Below are positions 37,309-50,814 of a DNA stretch of 64,000 nt, in pieces. The DNA is taken from positions 558,001 to 622,000 of the forward strand of contig NZ_VHKL01000001.1 of the NCBI RefSeq assembly GCF_007474605.1. The letters run 5' to 3'. The notes under the pieces are model-generated. The model ran no database searches, was not told the DNA's origin, and saw only the letters and a list, made by a program, of their open reading frames with translations. Each line of letters opens with the position of its first letter. Within the stretch, counting starts at the first letter, position 1. A program made the position numbers and the translations under genes. Source of the DNA: Rhodoligotrophos appendicifer (lineage in GTDB: Bacteria; Pseudomonadota; Alphaproteobacteria; Rhizobiales; Im1).

Positions 37309-38145
37309 CTACCCCTGCAGATCAGCAATCACGAGCGCCCGCAGCGCCGGCGTCACCTGTGGCCGCACGCCGAACCAGCGCTCGAAGGCGGGAACAGCCT
37401 GGTGGAGGAGCATTCCCAACCCATCCACGATGCGCAAGCCGCGTGTGGCGGCCTCGGTAAGCAGGGGCGTCATGAGCGGCACATAGACGATATCACAGAC
37501 AACCAGGGCCTCGGTGGCACCCTCGAAGCTGAACGCGAGCGGGTCCTTGCCCGTCATGCCGAGGGATGTCGTATTCACCAGCAGATCACAGCCATCCAGC
37601 ATGTCCTCTCGGCTGTCCCAAGGCACTACTCTGACAGTAGTGCCGAACTGCGATGCAACATCCTCGGCCCGCTGCATCGATCGATTCGCCAGCGCAATGG
37701 ATTTGACCCCCTCCTCCAGGAGGGCTCCGACGACGGCACGCGCTGCACCGCCAGCACCGAGTATGGCGACATTCGCCCCGTGTAGGGACAGATCCGGAAC
37801 CGCCTGCTTCAGGTTCGCCAGGAAGCCATAGCCATCGGTATTCGTGCCCATCAGCCGCCCATCCTGGAGATAGAGCGTGTTCACCGCCTGGAGGCTGTTG
37901 CTGAACCTGTCTTCGACCGTGACGCTGCGAAACACGGTCTCCTTGTGCGGGATCGTGACATTGGCGCCGATGAGCCCTTGCTCGGCGAAGCGCGCCAGGA
38001 ATTCGGGCAGGTCCTCCGGCGCGACGGCCCGCTTCTCGTAACGGGCATCGATGCCGTACTGCCGGAGCCAGTAATTGTGGATGAGCGGCGAGCGCGAATG
38101 GTGGATGGGCCATCCGATGACGCAGACTTGAGCAGGCTCGTTCAT
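37309..38145 (-). CDS. aroE: Shikimate dehydrogenase
   Basis: NADP-dependent reduction of 3-dehydroshikimate in aromatic amino acid synthesis. The 278 residues have the substrate loop GWPIHHSRSPLIHNYWLRQY, the catalytic GANVTIPHKETVF (Lys) and GTNTDGYGFLANLKQA (Asp), and the NADP site ILGAGGAARAVVGALLEEG with NRS next. It overlaps maf by 4 bases. Confidence 0.97.
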   Translation of the reverse strand: MNEPAQVCVIGWPIHHSRSPLIHNYWLRQYGIDARYEKRAVAPEDLPEFLARFAEQGLIGANVTIPHKETVFRSVTVEDRFSNSLQAVNTLYLQDGRLMGTNTDGYGFLANLKQAVPDLSLHGANVAILGAGGAARAVVGALLEEGVKSIALANRSMQRAEDVASQFGTTVRVVPWDSREDMLDGCDLLVNTTSLGMTGKDPLAFSFEGATEALVVCDIVYVPLMTPLLTEAATRGLRIVDGLGMLLHQAVPAFERWFGVRPQVTPALRALVIADLQG

Positions 38146-38744
38146 GTCAACAGGATGTGCTCTGACCGCAGAAATCCGAGGAGGGGAAGGAGAGGCAGCC
38201 CGAGAATGGTGAAGTAATCGCCCTCGATATGCTCGAACAATTGGGCCCCGAAGCCCTCCAGCTGATAGCCACCGGCGCTCTCCATGACCTTGTCATCGAG
38301 GGCGGCCAGATAGGCACCAAGAAAATCCGTGCTGAAGGCGCGCATTGTGAGTTGCGCTTCGGAATCCTGGCTCCAGACCACGGCGCCGCCTGTCGCGCAG
38401 GCCACCGCGCTGATCAGCGTATGCCGTTGCCCACGAAGGTCGAGGAGTTGCTCCCTCGCCTCTTCGCGCGAGGCTGGTTTATTGAAGATCCGTCCATCCA
38501 GGGAAAGAACCTGGTCGGCCCCGACAACCAGAGCCGATGGATTCGCCTCCGAAACCGAAAGGGCTTTCGCATGGGCGAGGATCATGGCGAGATCAGCCGG
38601 GTCGCTGTCACCCACGGCTTCCTTGACCGTGCCCTCGTCCACCGTATGGGGAGTGACGACCACCTTTAATCCGGCAGCCTCGAGCAGACGACGGCGGGCC
38701 GGACTGGCAGAGGCAAGGACGACCTGGCTGCGGCTGAGCGTCAT
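38142..38744 (-). CDS. maf: Maf-like nucleotide pyrophosphatase
   Basis: Nucleoside triphosphate pyrophosphatase of the Maf/YceF family, which removes dTTP/UTP-like or modified nucleotides. The 200 residues begin VVLASASPARRRLLEAAGLK (substrate Arg residues), contain VVGADQVLSLDGRIFNKPAS and end with GGYQLEGFGAQLFEHIEGDY, all motif positions intact. It overlaps ppsR by 4 bases at one end and aroE by 4 at the other. Confidence 0.94.
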   Translation of the reverse strand: MTLSRSQVVLASASPARRRLLEAAGLKVVVTPHTVDEGTVKEAVGDSDPADLAMILAHAKALSVSEANPSALVVGADQVLSLDGRIFNKPASREEAREQLLDLRGQRHTLISAVACATGGAVVWSQDSEAQLTMRAFSTDFLGAYLAALDDKVMESAGGYQLEGFGAQLFEHIEGDYFTILGLPLLPLLGFLRSEHILLT

Positions 38745-39568
38745 GGACGGGCCCTCGCATGTTGGCGTTGAGAATACAGATTCATGACTGCGGCCGCGGT
38801 CTCCTCGATCGATCGGCGGGTCACGTCGATGATGGGCCAGTTATGGCGCGCGCAGAGCTTCCTCGTAAAGACGAGTTCCTCGGCGATGGCCTCCCGGTCG
38901 ACATAGCGGGTATTGCCCGTGTCGTTCAGAGACAGGAGCCGGTTGCGCCGGATCTGCGCGATCCGCTCTGCCGTTGCCACCAGTGCGACGACCAGAGGCC
39001 GGCCCAGCTTGTCCATATCCGAGGGCAGCGGGGCGCCGGGAACGATGGGAACATTCGCAGCTTTGATCCCGCGATTGGCAAGATAGATGCTGGTCGGCGT
39101 CTTCGACGTCCGGCTGACCCCGAGCAGGATGACATCGGCTCCGGCCAGATCGTGGCTTTGCTGCCCGTCATCATGGGCCATGGTGTAGTTCAGCGCCTCG
39201 ATCCGCTTGAAATACTCGGCATCGAGCGTGTGCTGGCCGCCGATGCGCGGATGGGATTCTGCATTGAGATAAGATGCGAGAGCCGCCACCACCGGATCAA
39301 GGATCGAGATGTAGGGCAGTTCGAGGCGCCGGCAATGGCTTTCGAGGGCTGTGCGCAGCTCAGCATCCACCAGAGTGAACAGCACGATGCCCGGCGTATC
39401 CTCGATGTCCTGCAGCACCCGGTTCAGCTGTTTTGCGGTGCGCACGAGAGCGTAGGTATGCTCGATCGGGCGAAATTCATCATAATGTGCAACCGCAGCC
39501 CGGGCCACGGTGTTTAAGGTTTCTCCGGTCGAATCCGAGATGAGATGCAGATGGAAATAGGTCTTCAA
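38741..39568 (-). CDS. ppsR: PEP synthase/pyruvate phosphate dikinase regulatory protein (DUF299)
   Basis: Bifunctional kinase/phosphorylase that switches PEP synthase or PPDK off and on in characterised homologues. Key parts are HLHLISDSTGETLNTVARA near the N-terminus, the nucleotide-binding ILLGVSRTSKTPTSIYLANR (P-loop-like) and the C-terminal RLCARHNWPIIDVTRRSIEE. I place the start at TTG 39568 (family-like MKTYFHL); GTG 39589 is also open and would cover a DnaA box. This gene flanks the candidate origin, as its homologue RP001 does in Rickettsia, and opens the leftward maf-aroE-coaE-dnaQ operon. Confidence 0.93.
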   Translation of the reverse strand: MKTYFHLHLISDSTGETLNTVARAAVAHYDEFRPIEHTYALVRTAKQLNRVLQDIEDTPGIVLFTLVDAELRTALESHCRRLELPYISILDPVVAALASYLNAESHPRIGGQHTLDAEYFKRIEALNYTMAHDDGQQSHDLAGADVILLGVSRTSKTPTSIYLANRGIKAANVPIVPGAPLPSDMDKLGRPLVVALVATAERIAQIRRNRLLSLNDTGNTRYVDREAIAEELVFTRKLCARHNWPIIDVTRRSIEETAAAVMNLYSQRQHARARP

Positions 39569-39572
39569 TTGA

Positions 39573-39581
39573 TTATCCACA
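39573..39581 (+). promoter_or_regulatory. DnaA box (perfect TTATCCACA)
   Basis: Exact match to the strong consensus TTATCCACA, immediately upstream of the preferred ppsR start. It faces a second perfect box 27 bases on. Confidence 0.75.
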
Positions 39582-39608
39582 CCGGGCACTGGAGACCGCA
39601 GGACACTA

Positions 39609-39617
39609 TGTGGATAA
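39609..39617 (-). promoter_or_regulatory. DnaA box (perfect TTATCCACA, minus strand)
   Basis: TGTGGATAA on the plus strand is an exact consensus DnaA box on the minus strand. The convergent pair with 39573-39581 is unlikely by chance in a 400-bp gap. Confidence 0.75.
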
Positions 39618-39710
39618 CCCCGGCCGGCTGCTAGACATTGGCAATCTTGTCGTCCCTGTCCAGATTTTAATTAACAATCCGGACGCAGAGCAGCGCTCCT
39701 GGACTCGAAT

Positions 39711-39719
39711 CGTGGATAA
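39711..39719 (-). promoter_or_regulatory. DnaA box (TTATCCACG, one mismatch)
   Basis: CGTGGATAA on the plus strand, 8 of 9 to consensus. It overlaps by one base the GAATC methylation site at 39707-39711. Confidence 0.6.
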
Positions 39720-39753
39720 TCTGCAAAAGCTTGGTCAGTCCGTGCACGACCTG

Positions 39754-39768
39754 TTAATAAAATATTAA
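39754..39768 (+). promoter_or_regulatory. CtrA-type site TTAA-N7-TTAA
   Basis: TTAATAAAATATTAA reads as TTAA, seven bases (TAAAATA), TTAA: the full CtrA consensus of alphaproteobacteria. In Caulobacter, CtrA binds such sites in the origin and blocks initiation. It also forms an AT-rich tract that could assist unwinding. Confidence 0.6.
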
Positions 39769-39951
39769 GCATGCGGACGACCCATCGAACGCATCCGCAC
39801 GGTTCCGGTCCTTTTTTGACCGTACCGGAAACAAGTGGAATGCGAGAAGGTGAACAGGGATAAATGCGGGAGCCTGTGGGCAACTCCAACCACGTCTTGA
39901 AGCACCGATTCCCACCGTCCACTATCAAGAACAATCCTATTAGAAGATTCT

Positions 39952-39966
39952 TTAAGATTTGGTAAA
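39952..39966 (+). promoter_or_regulatory. Near-match CtrA site before hemE
   Basis: TTAA-GATTTGG-TAAA is one base off the TTAA-N7-TTAA consensus and ends 8 bases before the hemE ATG, where the Caulobacter origin/hemE promoter region also has CtrA control. Weaker than the perfect site. Confidence 0.35.
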
Positions 39967-39974
39967 AGCCCTTC

Positions 39975-41036
39975 ATGTCCATCTCTCCCGCGACGCCCCA
40001 GGCGCCCTCCTCGAAAGCGTTGCTCGCGGTTCTGAGCAGCACTCCTGCCCGTCGTCGCCCCATTTGGATGATGCGGCAAGCCGGCCGCTATCTTCCCGAA
40101 TATCGGGCGTTGAGAGAGCAGGCCGGCTCCTTTCTCAATCTCTGCTATAATCCGCCCTTGGCCGCCGAGGTGACGCTGCAGCCTTTGCAGCGTTTCGATC
40201 TCGATGCAGCCATCCTGTTTGCGGATATTCTCCTCATACCTCAGGCTCTCGGCGTCGACTTGACCTTTGCCGAGGGTGAAGGCCCCGTTCTGTCGACGGT
40301 GACCGATGCTGCTGGTGTCGCGGCTTTGAAGTCAGACGGAGCAGCGAGCCGGCTGTCTCCGGTCTATGAGACTGTGGAGCGCGTGGCCGCCGCCAAGGCC
40401 GACCACGTGACCCTCATTGGCTTCTGTGGCGCACCGTGGACGGTCGCGAGCTACATGATCGAGGGCCGCGGGTCGAACCGGCAGAAGGCCAGGCTGGCCG
40501 CGATCCGCGGGGAAGACTGGTTTGCTCACCTCATGGACATCGTGACGGAGGCCTCGATCGACTATCTCGTTGCCCAGCTGAAGGCCGGTGCCGAAGCTGT
40601 GCAGATCTTCGACAGTTGGGCCGGAGACCTTCCCGCCCGGCAGTTTGAGCGATGGTCCATTCAGCCGATCCAGCGCATGGTTGACGGCATTCGCGCAGCC
40701 GTTCCCGATGCCAGGATCATCGGCTTTCCCAAGGGCGTTGGCAGTGCGGCACTCTCCTTCGCGAAGGCGACGAATGTCGATGCGGTCGGCGTCGATTCCG
40801 CCGTGGCCCTGGACACCATGAAGGATCTATCCCGCCATTGCGCCGTTCAGGGGAACATCGACCCCCTCACCCTCGTCGCCGGAGGAGCCGCCCTCGACGA
40901 AGCCGTGGATGATCTGGTGGGTGCCTTGCCGCAGGACCGGCACATCGTCAATCTCGGCCATGGCATCGTGCCGGAGACCCCGATCCAGCATGTGGCGCAA
41001 TTCGTCGATCGGGTGCGGCGGGGCGACCGGAGCTGA
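39975..41036 (+). CDS. hemE: Uroporphyrinogen decarboxylase
   Basis: Converts uroporphyrinogen III to coproporphyrinogen III in haem synthesis. The 353 residues begin with the family signature RRPIWMMRQAGRYLPEYRAL (substrate Arg residues), have the catalytic Asp in LFADILLIPQALG, and contain HVTLIGFCGAPWTVASYMIE and NLGHGIVPETP. The start ATG is 8 bases after a near-match CtrA site. It is the first rightward gene from the candidate origin and is followed after 3 bases by hemJ; hemH, often found between them, is absent. Confidence 0.97.
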   Translation: MSISPATPQAPSSKALLAVLSSTPARRRPIWMMRQAGRYLPEYRALREQAGSFLNLCYNPPLAAEVTLQPLQRFDLDAAILFADILLIPQALGVDLTFAEGEGPVLSTVTDAAGVAALKSDGAASRLSPVYETVERVAAAKADHVTLIGFCGAPWTVASYMIEGRGSNRQKARLAAIRGEDWFAHLMDIVTEASIDYLVAQLKAGAEAVQIFDSWAGDLPARQFERWSIQPIQRMVDGIRAAVPDARIIGFPKGVGSAALSFAKATNVDAVGVDSAVALDTMKDLSRHCAVQGNIDPLTLVAGGAALDEAVDDLVGALPQDRHIVNLGHGIVPETPIQHVAQFVDRVRRGDRS

Positions 41037-41039
41037 TCC

Positions 41040-41477
41040 GTGGCAGAATGGTATCCCTGGCTCAAGGCCTTCCACATCATCTTCATGGTCAGCTGGATGG
41101 CCGGCCTGCTCTACCTCCCCCGGCTCTTCGTCTATCACTGCGGCGCGGTTGCCGGCAGCGATCAGAGCGAGACCTTCAAGATCATGGAGCGGCGCCTCTA
41201 CCGGGGCATCATGGGTCCGTCGTTCATCGGGACCTGGCTTTTCGGCCTCTCCCTCGCCTATACCCTCAGTCCCGGCATCTGGTCCGATGGTTGGTTTCAC
41301 ATGAAGCTGACGCTCGTCATCATCATGAGCGGCGTCCATGGTTTTCTGGGCGGGCAGGTCAAGACTTTCGCCGCCGACGGAAATCGTCGCTCCGCGCGTT
41401 TCTTCAGGATTATCAACGAGGTGCCCGCCGTGATCCTCGTTATCGTGGTCATCCTGGTGGTTGTTAAGCCATTTTAA
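41040..41477 (+). CDS. hemJ: Protoporphyrinogen oxidase HemJ
   Basis: Membrane enzyme that oxidises protoporphyrinogen IX to protoporphyrin IX in bacteria lacking HemG/HemY. The 145 residues start with GTG 41040 and have four hydrophobic helices with the conserved His residues in WLKAFHIIFMVSWMAGLLYL and GWFHMKLTLVIIMSGVHGFL, plus LYLPRLFVYH. The position directly after hemE supports the assignment. Confidence 0.93.
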   Translation: MAEWYPWLKAFHIIFMVSWMAGLLYLPRLFVYHCGAVAGSDQSETFKIMERRLYRGIMGPSFIGTWLFGLSLAYTLSPGIWSDGWFHMKLTLVIIMSGVHGFLGGQVKTFAADGNRRSARFFRIINEVPAVILVIVVILVVVKPF

Positions 41478-41706
41478 GGGGCCGACGCGTGAAACCTATT
41501 TAAATTCAGTTTGCAATTTGCTACATTGCGCAAAACCGTAAGGCAAATCACTTGCCCATGAAGCGGTGACGGTACGTAATTTCGGTACCCACTCAGCGTC
41601 TCTCCTTCCATTCGCCGAGTTCTGTAAAAGGGCGCAAACAGCGCGTTTTTCACCTTTCCGCAGTTCCTCGGACGATCCCCACTCTCTCTTTTGTTACCGG
41701 TGCACC
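41478..41706 (+). promoter_or_regulatory. Long leader region of rho
   Basis: 229 bases between hemJ and rho with no gene. It holds an inverted repeat GGTAC (41571-41575)/GTACC (41585-41589) and, in its last about 115 bases, a pyrimidine-rich, G-poor stretch. In Escherichia coli, rho expression is controlled by Rho-dependent attenuation in its leader; this C/T-rich leader could do the same, but that is inference. Confidence 0.35.
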
Positions 41707-42990
41707 ATGACCGACCTCTCTGGACTCAAAGAAACCAAGCTTCACGAATTGAAGATGAAGCCGCCGGCAGAATTATTGACGCTCGCCGAAGAGCTCGAGA
41801 TCGAGAATGCCAGTGCCCTGCGCAAGCAGGAACTGATGTTCGCGATCCTCAAGAGCCTGGCGACGCGCGATGTGGAAATCATCGGCGAAGGCGTCGTCGA
41901 AGTTCTCCAGGACGGCTTTGGGTTTCTGAGATCCCCCGATGCCAACTACCTTCCCGGACCTGACGACATCTATGTCAGTCCCAGCCAGATCCGCCGGTTC
42001 AACCTGCGCACCGGAGACACCGTCGAAGGCCAGATCAGAAGTCCGAAGGATGGCGAGCGCTATTTCGCGCTGCTGAAGGTCAACACGATCAATTTCGAAG
42101 ATCCCGACCAGACCCGGCACAAGATCCATTTCGACAATCTGACGCCTCTCTATCCCGATGAGCGGCTGGAGATGGAGATCGGCGATCCCACCGTGAGGGA
42201 CATGAGCTCGCGGGTCATCGGACTGGTCGCTCCTCTCGGCAAAGGCCAGCGCGGTCTCATCGTCGCTCCGCCCCGCACCGGTAAGACCGTTCTGCTGCAG
42301 AACATCGCCCATTCCATCACGACGAACCATCCCGAGGCCTACCTGATCGTGCTGCTCATCGACGAGCGGCCGGAGGAAGTCACGGACATGAAGCGCTCGG
42401 TCAAAGGCGAGGTCGTCAGCTCCACCTTCGACGAACCCGCCTCGCGGCACGTCCAGGTGGCGGAAATGGTCATCGAGAAGGCCAAGCGCCTGGTCGAGCA
42501 CCGCCGTGATGTCGTCATCCTGCTGGATTCCATCACCCGGCTGGGCCGAGCCTACAACACGGTAGTGCCGTCATCGGGCAAGGTGCTGACCGGCGGTGTC
42601 GACGCCAATGCTCTCCAGCGCCCCAAGCGCTTCTTCGGCGCCGCGCGCAATATCGAAGAGGGGGGATCGCTCACCATCATCGCGACCGCACTCATCGATA
42701 CCGGCAGCCGCATGGACGAGGTGATCTTCGAGGAATTCAAGGGCACTGGCAATTCGGAGCTCATCCTGGACCGCAAGGTTGCCGACAAGCGCGTGTTCCC
42801 GGCCATCGATATCGTCCGTTCCGGGACCCGGAAGGAAGAGCTTCTGGTTCGTCCCGACGAACTCAAGAGGATGTACGTCTTGCGCCGGATCCTGTCGCAG
42901 ATGGGCACCGTGGATGCCATCGAGTTCCTGCTCGACAAGATCAAGCAGACCAAGAGCAATGCCGATCTGTTCTCCATGATGAACAACTAG
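41707..42990 (+). CDS. rho: Transcription termination factor Rho
   Basis: Hexameric RNA helicase that ends transcription. 427 residues from ATG 41707; the upstream open frame runs through the leader and is rejected. N-terminal helices are followed by the cold-shock RNA-binding domain ([20 protein letters not shown], about 67-86), P-loop [15 protein letters not shown] (about 187-200), Walker [17 protein letters not shown] and the C-terminal loop. The usual alphaproteobacterial context downstream of hemE and hemJ is present; mnmE and mnmG follow beyond one inserted leftward gene. Confidence 0.97.
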
Positions 42991-45165: not shown

Positions 45166-46527
45166 ATGGTGCCGGAGCTTTTGTTTCACGTGAATCCTGA
45201 TCGCGCAGTGAATCGAACGGTCGACACGATCTTTGCCCCCTCTTCCGGTGCCGGACGGGCCGCAATTGCGGTTGTCCGGTTGACCGGACCTGAATGCAAG
45301 ACCGTCTGTATAAGGATCTGCGGTGACGTCCCGCCCCCGCGTCGTGCGTCGCTGCGCAGAATCCGCAACCCCGATACGAGTGTCGTTATCGACCAGGCAC
45401 TCGTGCTCTGGCTGCCTGGCCCCTCGACCTTTTCGGGCGAGGATATGCTTGAGCTTCACCTCCATGGCGGCCCTGCCGTCGTCGCAGCGGTGCTCCGCAC
45501 TCTGACCAGTCAGCCGGGACTGAGGCCTGCGGAGGCCGGGGAGTTCAGCCGCCGCGCCTTGGACAATGGTCGGATGAGCCTCGTCGACCTTGAAGGACTG
45601 AGCGATTTGATCGCGGCAGAGACCGAGGGTCAGCGCCTTCAGGCACTGCGTCAGTCCAGTGGCGAACTCGACCGGGTCTTCGAGGGCTGGCGCGCGAGGG
45701 CCCTGGGCCTTCTGGGTCATCTGGAAGCCCATATCGATTTCGTGGACGAAGAGGGCGTGCCGGACGAGGTTGCTGCGGAAGTGCGCCGGCGCGCAGGAGA
45801 GCTTGCCCGCGACATCACCGGCTATCTCGGCGATGGCCGTGGGGGAGAGCGTTTGCGCGAGGGCTTCACCATCGTGCTTGCCGGACCGCCCAACGTCGGC
45901 AAGTCCAGCCTGATGAACCGTATCGCCAAGAGAGATGTGGCGATCGTCGCCAATCGCCCGGGAACCACCCGTGATGTCCTCGAAGTGCACCTCGATCTCA
46001 ACGGTTATCCCGTCATCCTCATCGACACCGCTGGAATCCGGGACGCCGAGACGGACGAGGTTGAGGCGGAAGGAATGCGCCGGGCGAGGGACCGTATGGC
46101 TCGGGCCGATCTGACCCTCTGGGTCGAAAGTCCGGACGTGGCCCTACCCCCGCTGCCCCCGTTCGATTCGCCCGTGATCCGATTGGCAAACAAGGCCGAT
46201 CTCTTTGGCCATACCGTGGATGACACGGTGATTCCTGTGTCCGCGCGGACGGGTGAGGGGCTTGATCGCCTGCTGGAGGTCATGGGCGCCTGGGTGTCCG
46301 ACAGCCTGAGCCGAGCGCTTCAAGAGCCCCTGGTCACGCGCGAACGCCATCGCCATGCCTTGCAGGCTTGCATCGCCGCCCTCGCTCGTGCAGAGCAGGG
46401 GATGGTGCCGGAACTGATCGGCGAGGATCTTCGCGCAGCCTGCCTGTCTCTTGGACGGGTGGTGGGTCGCATCGATGTCGAAGATGTCCTGGGGGCGATC
46501 TTCGCCGAATTCTGCATTGGGAAGTAG
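45166..46527 (+). CDS. mnmE: tRNA modification GTPase MnmE
   Basis: With MnmG it adds the carboxymethylaminomethyl group to wobble uridine of tRNA. 453 residues: an N-terminal folate-binding domain (DTIFAPSSGAGRAAIAVVRL), the helical domain, a G domain with G1 GPPNVGKSSLMNRI, G2 PGTTRD, G3 DTAGI and NKAD, and the terminal FCIGK. The frame is open from ATG 45166; GTG codons at 45190 and 45208 are also possible starts, the first lying inside a parS-like site. No strong Shine-Dalgarno decides. The parS-like site encodes FHVNP. Confidence 0.95.
   Translation: MVPELLFHVNPDRAVNRTVDTIFAPSSGAGRAAIAVVRLTGPECKTVCIRICGDVPPPRRASLRRIRNPDTSVVIDQALVLWLPGPSTFSGEDMLELHLHGGPAVVAAVLRTLTSQPGLRPAEAGEFSRRALDNGRMSLVDLEGLSDLIAAETEGQRLQALRQSSGELDRVFEGWRARALGLLGHLEAHIDFVDEEGVPDEVAAEVRRRAGELARDITGYLGDGRGGERLREGFTIVLAGPPNVGKSSLMNRIAKRDVAIVANRPGTTRDVLEVHLDLNGYPVILIDTAGIRDAETDEVEAEGMRRARDRMARADLTLWVESPDVALPPLPPFDSPVIRLANKADLFGHTVDDTVIPVSARTGEGLDRLLEVMGAWVSDSLSRALQEPLVTRERHRHALQACIAALARAEQGMVPELIGEDLRAACLSLGRVVGRIDVEDVLGAIFAEFCIGK
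45182..45197 (+). other. parS-like ParB-binding site (mnmE 5' end)
   Basis: TGTTTCACGTGAATCC matches the bacterial parS consensus TGTTTCACGTGAAACA at 13 of 16 positions, including the whole TGTTTCACGTGAA core. It is about 5.5 kb from the candidate origin and about 4 kb from parAB. Confidence 0.7.
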
Positions 46528-46541
46528 TTTCACGTGAAACA
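46526..46541 (+). other. parS site (mnmE-mnmG junction)
   Basis: AGTTTCACGTGAAACA matches the consensus at 15 of 16 positions with a perfect 14-bp palindrome (GTTTCACGTGAAAC), the best parS in the window. It covers the last bases of the mnmE stop and the GTG start of mnmG. Confidence 0.9.
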
Positions 46542-48441
46542 CGTAGAGATTGAAGACGCGACGCTGCCGAACCAGGAGAGCCTGGCCTTCGACGTCCTGG
46601 TGATCGGCGGAGGTCACGCCGGATGCGAAGCCGCCGCTGCCTCGGCACGCTTCGGCGCGCGCACCGCCTTGGTCACCCATAAACGGGCCACCATCGGCGA
46701 GATGTCCTGCAACCCGGCCATCGGAGGGCTGGGCAAGGGCCATCTGGTGCGCGAGGTCGATGCTCTCGATGGCCTCATGGGAAGAGTGGCGGATCAGGCC
46801 GGCATCCAGTACCGGCTGCTCAACCGCAGCAAGGGCCCGGCGGTTCGCGGGCCTCGGGCCCAGGCCGATCGCCGCCTCTACCGTCAGGCCATGCAGGACG
46901 AACTCGCCCAGACCCCGGGGCTCTCAATCGTCGAGGGCGCGGTAGCCGATCTCCGGATGACCGGGGACCTCGTGACGGGCGTAATTCTGGAGGATGGCCG
47001 GCAGATCGCTGCCAAGGCCGTCGTGCTGACCACCGGAACCTTCCTGCGCGGCGTCATTCACATCGGTGAGCAGCGCGTCCCCGCAGGCCGCGTTGGAGAG
47101 GCGCCGGCAGCCCTGCTGGGCGAGCGGCTCTATGCCTCGGGATTGGCCATGGGCCGCCTGAAGACCGGGACGCCTGCCCGTCTCGATGGCCGCACCATCG
47201 CCTGGGAGCGGCTCGAGGAGCAGCCCGGAGACGCGGAGCCCGTCCCGTTCTCATTCCTGACCACGGTCCTCCCGCAGCGTCAGGTCTCCTGCCATATCAC
47301 CCACACAACGGCGGCGACTCACCGCGTCATCGAGGAGAATTTGGGCCGCTCGGCCCTGTTCGCAGGGGCGATCACCGGGACCGGACCGCGCTATTGCCCG
47401 TCGATCGAAGACAAGATCACCCGCTTTCGCGAGAAGGGCTCGCATCAAATCTTCCTCGAGCCCGAAGGCTTGGACGACCCCACGATCTATCCTAACGGTA
47501 TTTCCACGTCGCTGCCGGCGGATGTGCAGGAGGAATTCCTCCGCACCATTCCGGGCCTTGAAGCGGTCGCCATCATCCGCCCGGGTTATGCCATCGAGTA
47601 TGACTATGTCGATCCGCGCGAACTCCAGCCGACCCTGGAAGCCAAACGCTTTCCCGGTCTTTTCCTGGCGGGCCAGGTCAACGGCACGACCGGGTACGAA
47701 GAGGCTGCCGCACAAGGCCTGCTCGCGGGACTGAATGCGGCTCGCCGGGCGGGGGACGGCGACGCCGTCGTTATCGACCGCGCTGAGGCCTATCTCGGGG
47801 TCATGGTCGACGACCTCGTCACCAAAGGTGTCACCGAGCCCTACCGGATGTTCACCTCGCGGGCCGAGTATCGCCTGAGTCTGCGCGCGGACAATGCCGA
47901 TCAGCGCCTGACCCCGCGCGGCATTGCCTGGGGGATCGTCGGGCGCCCGCGTGCCACCGCCTACGCCGAGAAGTTGAACAATCTCGATGTTTCACGTGAA
48001 ATGGCCCGCCAGCGAAGCTTGACCCCTGACGAGGCGGCGCGCCACGGGATCAAGGTCAATCACGATGGGATCAGACGCAACGCCCTGGAGCTTCTGGCCT
48101 TCCCCGGAATTACCTATGAGGACCTCGGCCGCGTCTGGCCCGAGCTGCTGGAGCTGCCCCGCTTCGCCCGGGAGGAGTTGGAAGCGACGGCGCTCTATGC
48201 CGGCTATCTCGATCGCCAGCGCCAGGACGTCTTGGCCTTCCGGCGCGATGAGGGAAAGCCCATCCCGCTTGATCTCGATTACGAGGCCATCCCGGGCCTG
48301 TCCACAGAGATCCGGCAGAAGCTGCTGCGGATCCGCCCGGCAACGCTGGGTCAGGCGGGACGGATCGACGGGGTGACGCCGGCCGCCCTCACTTTGCTGC
48401 TCGCGCACCTCAAACGGGAGACGGCCCGGCGGTCGGCATGA
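46534..48441 (+). CDS. mnmG: tRNA modification enzyme MnmG (GidA)
   Basis: FAD protein that partners MnmE. 635 residues: [20 protein letters not shown] (FAD site), then [20 protein letters not shown] and [13 protein letters not shown] (with nearby FAD-binding motifs), and the C-terminal helical domain. The first plausible start is GTG 46534, which lies inside the parS site, about 6 residues after the mnmE stop; there is no in-frame ATG before the FAD motif. Another parS lies within the gene near residue 485-490. It overlaps rsmG by 4 bases. Confidence 0.96.
47988..48003 (+). other. parS-like site inside mnmG
   Basis: TGTTTCACGTGAAATG matches the consensus at 14 of 16 positions with a perfect TGTTTCACGTGAAA core. 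It lies within the mnmG coding sequence, read there as DVSREM. Confidence 0.8.
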
Positions 48442-49088
48442 CGTCCTCTGATCTCAGCACTCCGGAAGGCGTGGCCGATGCCTTCGATGTTTCACGTGAA
48501 TCTCTTGGCCGTCTGCAGATCTATGTGGACCTCCTCGGCAAGTGGAACGCCTCCATCAATCTGGTGGCGGATGCGTCTCCCGAGATTGTTTGGCGCCGCC
48601 ATATCGCCGACAGTCTGCAAATCCGCCGCTTCATCCCCCATGGGATATCGGTCATCGACCTCGGCTCCGGTGCTGGCTTCCCCGGACTTCCACTCGCCAT
48701 CCTCTTCGGACCGAATCCCAGTCAGATCTGCCATCTGGTCGAGAGCAACCGCAAAAAATGCGCCTTCCTCTTGAATGCGATCCGACTGACCGACGCAGCT
48801 GCAGTCGTGCATGCCACACGTATCGAATCAGTTGCCACACAAGAACTTAACCCACCGCCTGGGGTGATAACCGCTCGTGCAGTGGCACCCCTCACGAAGC
48901 TGCTGGAATTATCGGAGGTTTTCCTCAGGAAAGGCGCCATTGCCGTCTTCCTCAAGGGTCAAGATGTGGGCAGCGAGTTGACGGAAGCCGCTAAATCTTG
49001 GAGAATCGAGGCTGATATTCATCCAAGCGTGGTCGACCCCTCTGGGCGCGTCGTGGTGGTCCACCAAGCAAGATTTATTGGCCAATAG
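48438..49088 (+). CDS. rsmG: 16S rRNA (guanine-N7) methyltransferase RsmG (GidB)
   Basis: Methylates N7 of G527 in 16S rRNA using SAM. 216 residues with [20 protein letters not shown], the SAM-binding [20 protein letters not shown] (about 72-91) and [16 protein letters not shown]. Its ATG overlaps the mnmG stop by 4 bases. A parS-like site lies near codons 17-22. It is the last gene before parA, 2 bases apart. Confidence 0.95.
48488..48503 (+). other. parS-like site inside rsmG
   Basis: TGTTTCACGTGAATCT matches the consensus at 13 of 16 with an intact TGTTTCACGTGAA core. It is read as DVSRES in RsmG, the same frame and peptide as the mnmG site. Confidence 0.7.
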
Positions 49089-49090
49089 AC

Positions 49091-49909
49091 ATGACGTTCC
49101 CTCAGACGCCTTCGCCCAAGCCGCGTATTCTGGCCATTGCAAATCAGAAAGGCGGGGTCGGCAAGACGACGACCGCCATCAATCTGGGAACCGCACTCGC
49201 CGCCGTTGGCGAGCAGGTTCTCATCGTCGACCTGGATCCGCAGGGGAATGCCAGCACCGGTCTCGGCGTCACCCGCACCTCGCAAATGCGCTCGACCTAC
49301 CACGTGCTGGTAGGCGAAGCGCAGCTGCATCATGTTGTCGTAGAAACCGGCATTCCGCGCCTGGATTGCGCTCCCTCGACCATGGATTTGCTCGGGGCTG
49401 AGATCGAGCTCTCCGACATGGAGCGGAAGACATATCGGCTTGCCGACGCCATCGGCATTTTGTCCGGCCAGACCGGACTCGGTTATACTTATATTCTGAT
49501 CGACTGCCCTCCCTCGCTGAACCTGTTGACGATTAACTCCTTCTGCGCCGCCGACGCCATTCTGGTGCCCCTGCAATGCGAATTTTTCGCCTTGGAGGGT
49601 CTGAGCCAACTGCTGAAGACCGTCGAACGCGTCCGTGCGAGCCTCAATCCCCGCCTGGTCATCCAGGGCGTCGTTCTCACGATGTTCGATCGCCGTAACA
49701 GTCTGTCGGAACAGGTTGCCCAAGACGTGCGCGGCGTCCTCGGTGAAAAGGTCTACGAGACGGTCATACCGCGAAATGTTCGGGTGTCCGAGGCGCCGTC
49801 TTACGGAAAACCGGTGCTATTATACGATAATACCTGTATAGGCAGCCAAGCCTATATTCGTCTCGCATCCGAAATAATCCGCCGGGAAAAGGAACTTCGG
49901 GCAGCATGA
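49091..49909 (+). CDS. parA: Chromosome-partitioning ATPase ParA
   Basis: Walker-type ATPase that moves ParB-bound origins. 272 residues with the deviant Walker A IANQKGGVGKTTTAINLGTA (about 17-36), VDLDPQGNASTGLG (A') and YILIDCPPSLNLLTINSFCA (Walker B). It follows rsmG by 2 bases and overlaps parB by 4, the conserved rsmG-parA-parB order next to the origin. The ATP-binding residues are intact. Confidence 0.97.
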   Translation: MTFPQTPSPKPRILAIANQKGGVGKTTTAINLGTALAAVGEQVLIVDLDPQGNASTGLGVTRTSQMRSTYHVLVGEAQLHHVVVETGIPRLDCAPSTMDLLGAEIELSDMERKTYRLADAIGILSGQTGLGYTYILIDCPPSLNLLTINSFCAADAILVPLQCEFFALEGLSQLLKTVERVRASLNPRLVIQGVVLTMFDRRNSLSEQVAQDVRGVLGEKVYETVIPRNVRVSEAPSYGKPVLLYDNTCIGSQAYIRLASEIIRREKELRAA

Positions 49910-50814
49910 CCAGGCTCGACGAGGTTCAGGTGGCGGGGAGCACGACTATGATACCATCGAAGAAGCGCCTCGGCCGAGGCCTTGCCGCATTGATCGGCGA
50001 CGACGCGAGCGAGGAGGGGTTCGTCCAGGACGCCCGCAGCCTGCGCCATTTGCCGATTGAATTCCTGAACCGCAGCGACCGCAATCCTCGACGGGTGTTC
50101 AACGAGCAGGACATTGCCGACCTCTCGCAATCCATCGCCAAGCGCGGCTTGCTGCAGCCGCTGGTGGTGCGGCCGCGAGGCGAGGATAGCTACGAGATCG
50201 TTGCCGGCGAACGCCGCTGGCGCGCCGCGCAGATGGCGGGCCTGCACGAAGTCCCCGTCATTATCCGACAGCTCACCGACGCGGAAGCCCTCGAAGTTGC
50301 GCTGATCGAGAACATCCAGCGGGCGGACCTCAACCCGATCGAGGAGGCCGAGGGCTATCGCCAGCTGATGGAAGGCTACTCCTACACCCAACAGCAGCTC
50401 GCCGATGCCGTCGGCAAGAGCCGTAGCCACATCGCGAACACGTTGCGACTCCTCACCCTGCCCCGCAGGGTCCTGACCATGGTGGAGCAGGGTGACCTCA
50501 CGGCAGGACATGCCCGCGCCCTCATCGCGACCGACAGGTCCGAAGCTCTGGCGGACCGCATCGTCAGCAAGGGCCTCACGGTTCGCGACGCTGAAGCGTT
50601 GGCAAGAGAGGCTCAGGACAAGCCAGCAAAGCCGTCATCGAAACGTGCTCCGGCCAAGGATGCCGACACCGCAGCGCTGGAACGGCAGCTCTCCGATCAT
50701 CTCGGGCTGGTCGTCGAGATAACGTTCCAAGGAGCCAAAGGCGGAGCAATTTCAATTCGCTACAGCGATCTCGACCAGCTCGACGACGTCTGCCGCCGGC
50801 TGACGCGGGCCTGA
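49906..50814 (+). CDS. parB: Chromosome-partitioning protein ParB
   Basis: parS-binding CTPase that spreads on DNA as a clamp. 302 residues: an N-terminal ParA-interacting stretch with [16 protein letters not shown], a ParB/Srx domain with [18 protein letters not shown] (CTP-binding GERRxRA) and [20 protein letters not shown] (ENxQR), a helix-turn-helix ([20 protein letters not shown]) and a C-terminal dimerisation domain. All motifs are present. Five parS-like sites occur in this window. The ATG overlaps the parA stop; another ATG at about residue 15 is also open. Confidence 0.97.

Follow-up and report, generated by a model that had tools for sequence, protein, structure and literature searches.

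The chromosomal origin of Caulobacter crescentus, Cori, is described as lying between hemE and a COG1806 (ppsR-type) gene and as carrying DnaA boxes, an AT-rich stretch and CtrA sites of the form TTAA-N7-TTAA, and the origin region of Rickettsia prowazekii is placed in the 384 bp between RP885 (hemE) and RP001 (PMC1914354). The first-pass annotation of the DNA studied here had taken initiation next to hemE in Caulobacter and the predicted Rickettsia origin as its precedents, and both agree with that account. Elsewhere, the chromosomal origin of Sinorhizobium meliloti is reported to lack both CtrA motifs and binding by CtrA (PMC4433202), and a CtrA ChIP signal adjoining the origin is reported for Hyphomonas neptunium (PMC7200025).

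The ppsR-hemE gap and its DnaA boxes

The window is the whole 64,000-nucleotide stretch that was analysed, C1:558001-622000, on an 862-kb contig; the genome totals 5.59 Mb in 33 contigs. Positions below are those of the window unless C1 is given.

38741..39568, minus strand: ppsR-type gene (COG1806/DUF299), left flank; NF003742, 340.9 bits, cut-off 225
39569..39974, no strand: putative oriC, the 406 bp between ppsR and hemE; best DnaA-box cluster on the contig, nearby KOPS switch, conserved gap
39975..41036, plus strand: hemE, right flank; TIGR01464, 385.7 bits, cut-off 302.95

As previously annotated, the ORFs left of the gap (read by us as maf, aroE, coaE and dnaQ) point left and hemE, hemJ and rho point right, according to the ORF listing and profile matches, and the gap separates divergent hemE and COG1806/ppsR-type genes, as expected of a Cori-type origin. 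The description of the gap as gene-free stood insofar as no gene was recognised in it from the ORF list, but two antisense ORFs, outside the family search, overlap the gap and the start of hemE (39671-40063, 130 aa; 39765-40079, 104 aa). No Rfam family was matched in 38000-42000. By comparison with relatives we favour TTG at 39568 as the ppsR start; the alternatives, GTG at 39589 or 39580, would place the box at 39573-39581 inside ppsR. The AT content of the gap was 49.5% over 400 bp, matched by 1.2% of the 400-bp windows of the contig. The G+C content was 57-58% over some 80-100 kb to the left of the gap (C1:500-580 kb) and about 62% to the right, and the low-G+C left part of the window still carries the core genes dnaX, dnaK and dnaJ (by Pfam).

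The DnaA boxes and AT-rich tracts, with the aligned places in the relatives G001, G002 and G003, were as follows.

39573..39581, plus strand: DnaA box I, perfect TTATCCACA; aligned 9-mer has two mismatches each in G001, G002 and G003
39609..39617, minus strand: DnaA box II, perfect TTATCCACA; aligned 9-mer identical in G001, one mismatch in G003, two in G002
39664..39677, no strand: AT-rich tract, weakly DnaA-box-like; aligned place TTATTAACA in G001, TTATCAACA in G002
39711..39719, minus strand: DnaA box III, 8 of 9 (TTATCCACG)
39752..39760, minus strand: weak DnaA box (TTATTAACA, 7 of 9), sharing bases with the CtrA-type site
39754..39768, no strand: CtrA-type site TTAA-N7-TTAA; one of three on the 862-kb contig
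39875..39883, minus strand: weak DnaA box (TTGCCCACA, 7 of 9); TGTGG core invariant across four aligned gaps

All the boxes named in the first-pass annotation (two perfect in opposite orientation, one 8-of-9 and two weaker, 7-of-9) were re-found. Of the AT-rich tracts, that at 39754-39768 is a full CtrA-type site. The CtrA-type site and a hemE-side melting element with GANTC sites were features absent from that annotation. The perfect box was not enriched genome-wide, with 11 copies of TTATCCACA in 5.59 Mb compared to 19 for the reversed control; two of the 11 sit 36 bp apart in the gap (chance about 7e-4), and these are both perfect boxes of the 862-kb contig. Contig matches with at most one mismatch numbered 61 (reversed control 75), three of them, including both perfect boxes, in the gap. 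Counting box matches, a check that had been proposed earlier, returned the gap as the top cluster in a scan of the 862-kb contig, and the cluster exceeds chance. No IHF site matching WATCAANNNNTTR or WATCAN5WTR was found in the gap, these being two consensus forms that degenerate sites could escape; we treat the IHF site as accessory and keep the gap among Cori-type origins. The gaps of G002 and G003 hold no perfect DnaA box, and relatives were therefore scored by boxes with at most one mismatch.

Strand polarity, dnaA and parABS

Cumulative GC skew along C1 fell to about 480 kb, stayed flat to about 710 kb and then rose, with its minimum at C1:618,804, 21 kb from the gap and inside a flat zone of about 470-720 kb. 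The proposal that the skew minimum would fall at the gap therefore held loosely on this single 862-kb contig, yet the minimum is broad and 21 kb off and neither pins nor refutes the site; GC skew alone was dropped as a means of placing the origin because it is too flat around the gap. The octamer GGGNAGGG, which we take to be the E. coli KOPS consensus, was used purely as a polar word. Its forward and reverse copies on the 862-kb contig numbered 11 and 64 left of the gap and 24 and 13 right of it (Fisher 1.7e-7). The best switch is at 609-613 kb, with all positions from 469 to 622 kb inside 2 log units, which leaves the gap unpinned by polarity.

Two relatives assembled as single contigs were each sampled at 20 places (20 kb per about 240 kb): G001, of the same genus, with 4.81 Mb, and G003, of the same family, with 4.63 Mb. 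Positive skew gave way to negative within 260-480 kb in both, the points opposite hemE being 0.438 and 0.289 Mb, respectively. The sampled skew minimum was the hemE-containing stretch in G003 and lay at 3.08 Mb in G001, where four of the seven samples after hemE were negative and two near zero; KOPS after hemE in G001 were mostly forward, though GC skew was poor on that side.

The dnaA gene is on the same contig as the gap, at 102 kb, 495 kb away and within a uniformly polar stretch. An origin near dnaA, as in many other bacteria, would be compatible with the shared 862-kb contig, but skew is negative and KOPS are mostly reverse on both sides of C1:102 kb and no box cluster was found there, for which reasons dnaA was rejected as a neighbour of the origin and this placement is given almost no credence. 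Beside dnaA, at C1:60-100 kb, GC skew was unusually strong (-0.12 to -0.13). Two Bac_DnaA-domain matches in G000 (C7:102841-103131 and C11:445-735) have equal scores and frame lengths and are probably copies of one mobile ATPase gene, at a guess IstB-like.

A parABS system had been placed to the right of the gap, and its components were searched for with profiles and with TGTTTCACGTGAAACA, taken as the parS sequence.

45182, 46526, 47988 and 48488 (span 45182..48503), no strand: four parS-like sites, at most two mismatches to TGTTTCACGTGAAACA
49091..49909, plus strand: parA-like gene; best match NF041546, 100 bits, under its cut-off of 180
49906..50814, plus strand: parB-like gene; TIGR00180, 183.4 bits, cut-off 58.45
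59774, no strand: fifth parS-like site right of the gap, at most two mismatches to TGTTTCACGTGAAACA

The genome holds seven parS-like sites (reversed control 0), six of them in the window and five right of the gap by 5-20 kb, so that a parS-like cluster, a parB-like gene over its cut-off and a parA-like gene under its cut-off do lie on that side.

Conservation of the gap and its motifs among relatives

The gap DNA gave no significant match in the three nearest genomes (best E 0.145), so it was compared through flanking genes and motifs. The 109 related loci, selected on HemE similarity, are not an independent sample; they comprise 80 named-record loci (the best 80 of 566 confirmed, the closest being mostly Hyphomicrobiales records with 49-57% HemE identity) and 29 others, for which 59 matched genomes gave 30 loci and the window's own (L130) was left out. 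On the strength of these closest records we place the window's genome in the Hyphomicrobiales. The genes ppsR and hemE were kept divergent, about 330-800 bp apart, in 87 of the 109 loci, and the 22 without ppsR beside hemE were left out of the gap counts. The resulting 88 gaps (87 relatives and the window), compared to dinucleotide shuffles, held 148 boxes with at most one mismatch (7.2 shuffled), 18 perfect boxes (0.15 shuffled) and 370 GANTC (183 shuffled). Within the 59 named-record loci that keep the gap, boxes with at most one mismatch were 26 times denser in the gaps than elsewhere; perfect boxes numbered 13 in the gaps (26.8 kb) compared to 5 in the rest (704.8 kb), and GANTC 281 compared to 1586. 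A dereplicated set of 75 gaps held 122 boxes, 32 CtrA-type sites in 29 gaps and 272 GANTC. Two records group away from their names: L036 (JAHREI010000001.1), titled Bacillus subtilis SK6B4, whose hemE and ppsR group with Brucellaceae/Phyllobacteriaceae and which is a mislabelled or mixed assembly, and L028 (CAMBQQ010000077.1), a MAG named Rhizobium sp. Q54, which groups with Pseudolabrys (Xanthobacteraceae), not Rhizobiaceae.

Such motifs might also be collected by a mere divergent ppsR/hemE promoter on whose transcription DnaA, CtrA and GcrA/CcrM act, with the origin elsewhere. The divergence of the two genes, a GC skew that leaves the site unpinned and the reported action of GcrA at promoters bearing methylated GANTC in Caulobacter (PMC8116508) are in keeping with this. 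Genomes in which the two genes are apart speak against it. Among the 22 loci without adjacent ppsR, the gene is elsewhere in 10 genomes and had no match in 12. In the split genomes 40 GANTC occurred in 5.4 kb upstream of ppsR (nine stretches, L212 being dropped with only 20 bp upstream) compared to 11 in 6.0 kb upstream of hemE (ten stretches; Fisher 7e-6), the hemE-side density equalling background level. Boxes with at most one mismatch were present on the ppsR side in five of nine and on the hemE side in one of ten, and a strict CtrA-type site in one of nine and none of ten, respectively.

One split genome, G037, has the order ppsR-gap-hemJ-rho-mnmE-mnmG (genes named by our reading), in which hemE alone departed and the GANTC-bearing gap stayed by ppsR (L226, L240). 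Its ppsR is at 0.957 Mb (opposite point 4.96 Mb) and its hemE at 7.09 Mb, and forward/reverse KOPS in 20 samples were 19/2 over 0.95-4.5 Mb and 1/14 over 5.5-7.8 Mb. This polarity fits an origin at ppsR rather than at hemE; the samples at 1 and 400 kb (KOPS 1/0 each) go against an origin by ppsR, and GC skew was uninformative. Since hemJ and rho remain by the G037 gap, a retained promoter could also explain its GANTC. With GANTC and boxes staying by ppsR, the G037 polarity fitting an origin at ppsR though with two of 20 samples against, and no sigma70-type promoter matched in 39500-40050 by a scan covering that type, we regard the promoter-only account as very unlikely. Seven of the 12 genomes with no ppsR match keep a box with at most one mismatch upstream of hemE; L049 and L010, both of this group, retain boxes and a strict CtrA-type site there. 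The retention of motifs on the ppsR side, the G037 arrangement and the hemE-side boxes in these seven together indicate that hemE is a marker of the origin, not a part of it.

One strict CtrA-type site, an accessory feature of Cori-type origins that is lacking in S. meliloti, was found in the gap of the window, and the gaps of G001, G002 and G003 (L132, L131, L133) each have one, at the aligned position in G001 and G002. A CtrA-model match in the window's genome scored 423.8 bits (cut-off 350, passed by one of 14 control genomes). The 88 gaps held 44 CtrA-type sites, in 35 gaps, compared to 0.55 in shuffles; 31 were in the 59 named-record gaps, with none in the other 704.8 kb of those loci, and half-site spacers other than 7 (range 2-13) yielded 0-11 sites. 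On a quick maximum-likelihood tree of HemE and PpsR (88 rows) the strict site was present in each of the four genomes belonging to the window's family, in 35 of 65 rows outside the Rhizobiaceae/Brucellaceae/Phyllobacteriaceae/Notoacmeibacteraceae clade and in none of its 23 rows (Fisher 8e-7, kinship ignored). The label required 15 changes on the tree compared to 28 in shuffles, none of 500 shuffles being as low, from which the site was gained or lost several times. A relaxed motif (TTWW-N7-TTWW) showed no excess in the 23 rhizobial-clade gaps (12 sites in 8 gaps; 6.6 shuffled, maximum 14). The complete lack in this clade agrees with the report of an origin without CtrA motifs in S. meliloti, which we take to be a member of the same order as the window's genome. 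This suggests that a CtrA switch site may be kept at the origin in many families of the order and absent from rhizobia, and direct CtrA control of the origin is likely. Among open PMC articles judged by title and abstract, no published CtrA or CcrM site map of Hyphomicrobiales origins was recognised, which is no proof of absence.

Melting was predicted from nearest-neighbour energies of 30-mers, and the GANTC sites lie partly in the element so predicted.

39702..39711, no strand: two tandem GANTC (CcrM-type) sites (starts 39702 and 39707), touching DnaA box III
39907..39911, no strand: GANTC site bordering the melting element
39917..39970, no strand: putative DNA unwinding element adjoining hemE; the 30-mers of lowest stability in the gap begin at 39917-39941
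39946..39950, no strand: GANTC site within the melting element; same place enriched in relatives

The AT-rich, easily melted stretch of a Cori-type origin is thus predicted at 39917-39970. From left to right the gap comprises the perfect boxes at the ppsR end, the AT tract, two GANTC with the third box, the CtrA-type site with its weak box, the weak box with the TGTGG core that does not vary across four genomes, and, beside hemE, the GANTC-bearing stretch of lowest stability. Across the 88 gaps, the hemE alignment starts less than 100 bp from the start of the least stable 30-mer in 58, and 14 of the 18 perfect boxes start at least 350 bp from hemE; perfect boxes at the ppsR end and a predicted melting element at the hemE end are a layout common to many gaps.

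In the 150 bp nearest hemE the GANTC density was 15.8 per kb, a seven-fold enrichment, compared to 6.1 for the remainder of the gap, 2.25 beyond the gaps and 2.89 in AT-matched windows, and eleven other palindromes with one free base gave 1.5-6.9 per kb in these 150 bp. At least one GANTC was present in 82 of 88 gaps and two or more in 62. The window's genome has GcrA and one RAMA domain, the type of domain that forms the C terminus of CcrM. The Caulobacter origin is reported to hold several GANTC, with extra chromosomes when CcrM is in excess (PMC3973325); at Agrobacterium ori1, CcrM depletion or excess is reported to be without significant effect (PMC11514494), and a review calls CcrM dispensable for initiation (PMC6090056). 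A role of CcrM at the origin is put forward weakly; GANTC in Caulobacter-type origins has already been reported, and Agrobacterium ori1 was not changed significantly by loss or excess of CcrM.

The gap could be oriC and its CtrA-type and GANTC sites still have no replication role, arising by chance or serving a hemE/hemJ promoter. Neither motif is unusual genome-wide (TTAA-N7-TTAAC occurs 19 times, reversed control 16), no strict CtrA site is present in 30 of the 65 gaps that fall outside the rhizobial clade, and the cited Agrobacterium data and review point the same way. Against this stand the excess of CtrA-type sites over shuffles and other spacers and the GANTC density beside hemE compared to outside, AT-matched and other-palindrome values, and we consider the absence of a role possible but unlikely.

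The putative origin and its likeness to known systems

The box cluster, the KOPS switch, the parS-like cluster with parAB, the skew change opposite hemE in two relatives and the conserved gap and motifs lead us to read the 406-bp ppsR-hemE gap as, very probably, the chromosomal replication origin, upholding the oriC assignment of the first-pass annotation. In the mechanism proposed from these motifs, DnaA would first bind both perfect boxes near ppsR (39573, 39609), then spread onto the weaker boxes (39711, 39752, 39875) and open the AT-rich element by hemE (39917-39970), where helicase would be loaded and from which forks would depart in both directions; ParB on the parS-like sites 5-20 kb rightward would move the copies apart. 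Phosphorylated CtrA at 39754-39768 plausibly competes with DnaA at the overlapping weak box, keeping the origin silent in non-replicating cells. It is doubtful, though conceivable, that firing changes the CcrM methylation state of the four GANTC sites, of which two are inside or adjoin the melting element, and that this might label origins that have just fired.

A broader, tentative reading, which we think improbable as a whole, would have two origin regimes within one order: CtrA would silence oriC directly through one or two central sites in the window's family and many others, and the Rhizobiaceae-Brucellaceae-Phyllobacteriaceae clade would do so without CtrA sites. In nearly all gaps, CcrM sites in the melting region could in addition tune opening by hemimethylation after firing, much as Dam/SeqA do at E. 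coli oriC; the reading is rated lower because the Agrobacterium ori1 data speak against its CcrM half. Placing the origin on a chromosome in 33 contigs orients work on replication, segregation and gene dosage in the genus. The single published contrast, CtrA binding the Caulobacter origin and not that of S. meliloti, becomes a testable map across the order that predicts which families show CtrA at oriC and which do not; GANTC in the melting region is a second, riskier lead.

Compared to the systems described, the CtrA motif in the gap is a likeness to H. neptunium, presumably outside the order of this genome, where ChIP placed CtrA next to the origin; the likeness here is one of sequence motif. 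The strict site sets the gap apart from the S. meliloti origin, reported without CtrA motifs. The R. prowazekii origin (RP885 hemE / RP001) shares the gene pair and, at 384 bp, a similar gap size, but is reported as 82.6% AT compared to 50% here (PMC1914354). With C. crescentus Cori the gap shares the gene pair, DnaA boxes, AT-rich stretch, CtrA motif and GANTC described there. Differences are that Cori is described with five CtrA sites and the gap has one strict site, that the IHF-type match was not found in the gap with two consensus forms, and that the Caulobacter G-boxes read TGATCCACA (PMC4285127) whereas the gap has two perfect E. coli-type boxes. The origin is ordinary in kind, of the Cori type with the hemE-COG1806 arrangement as described for Caulobacter (PMC1914354).
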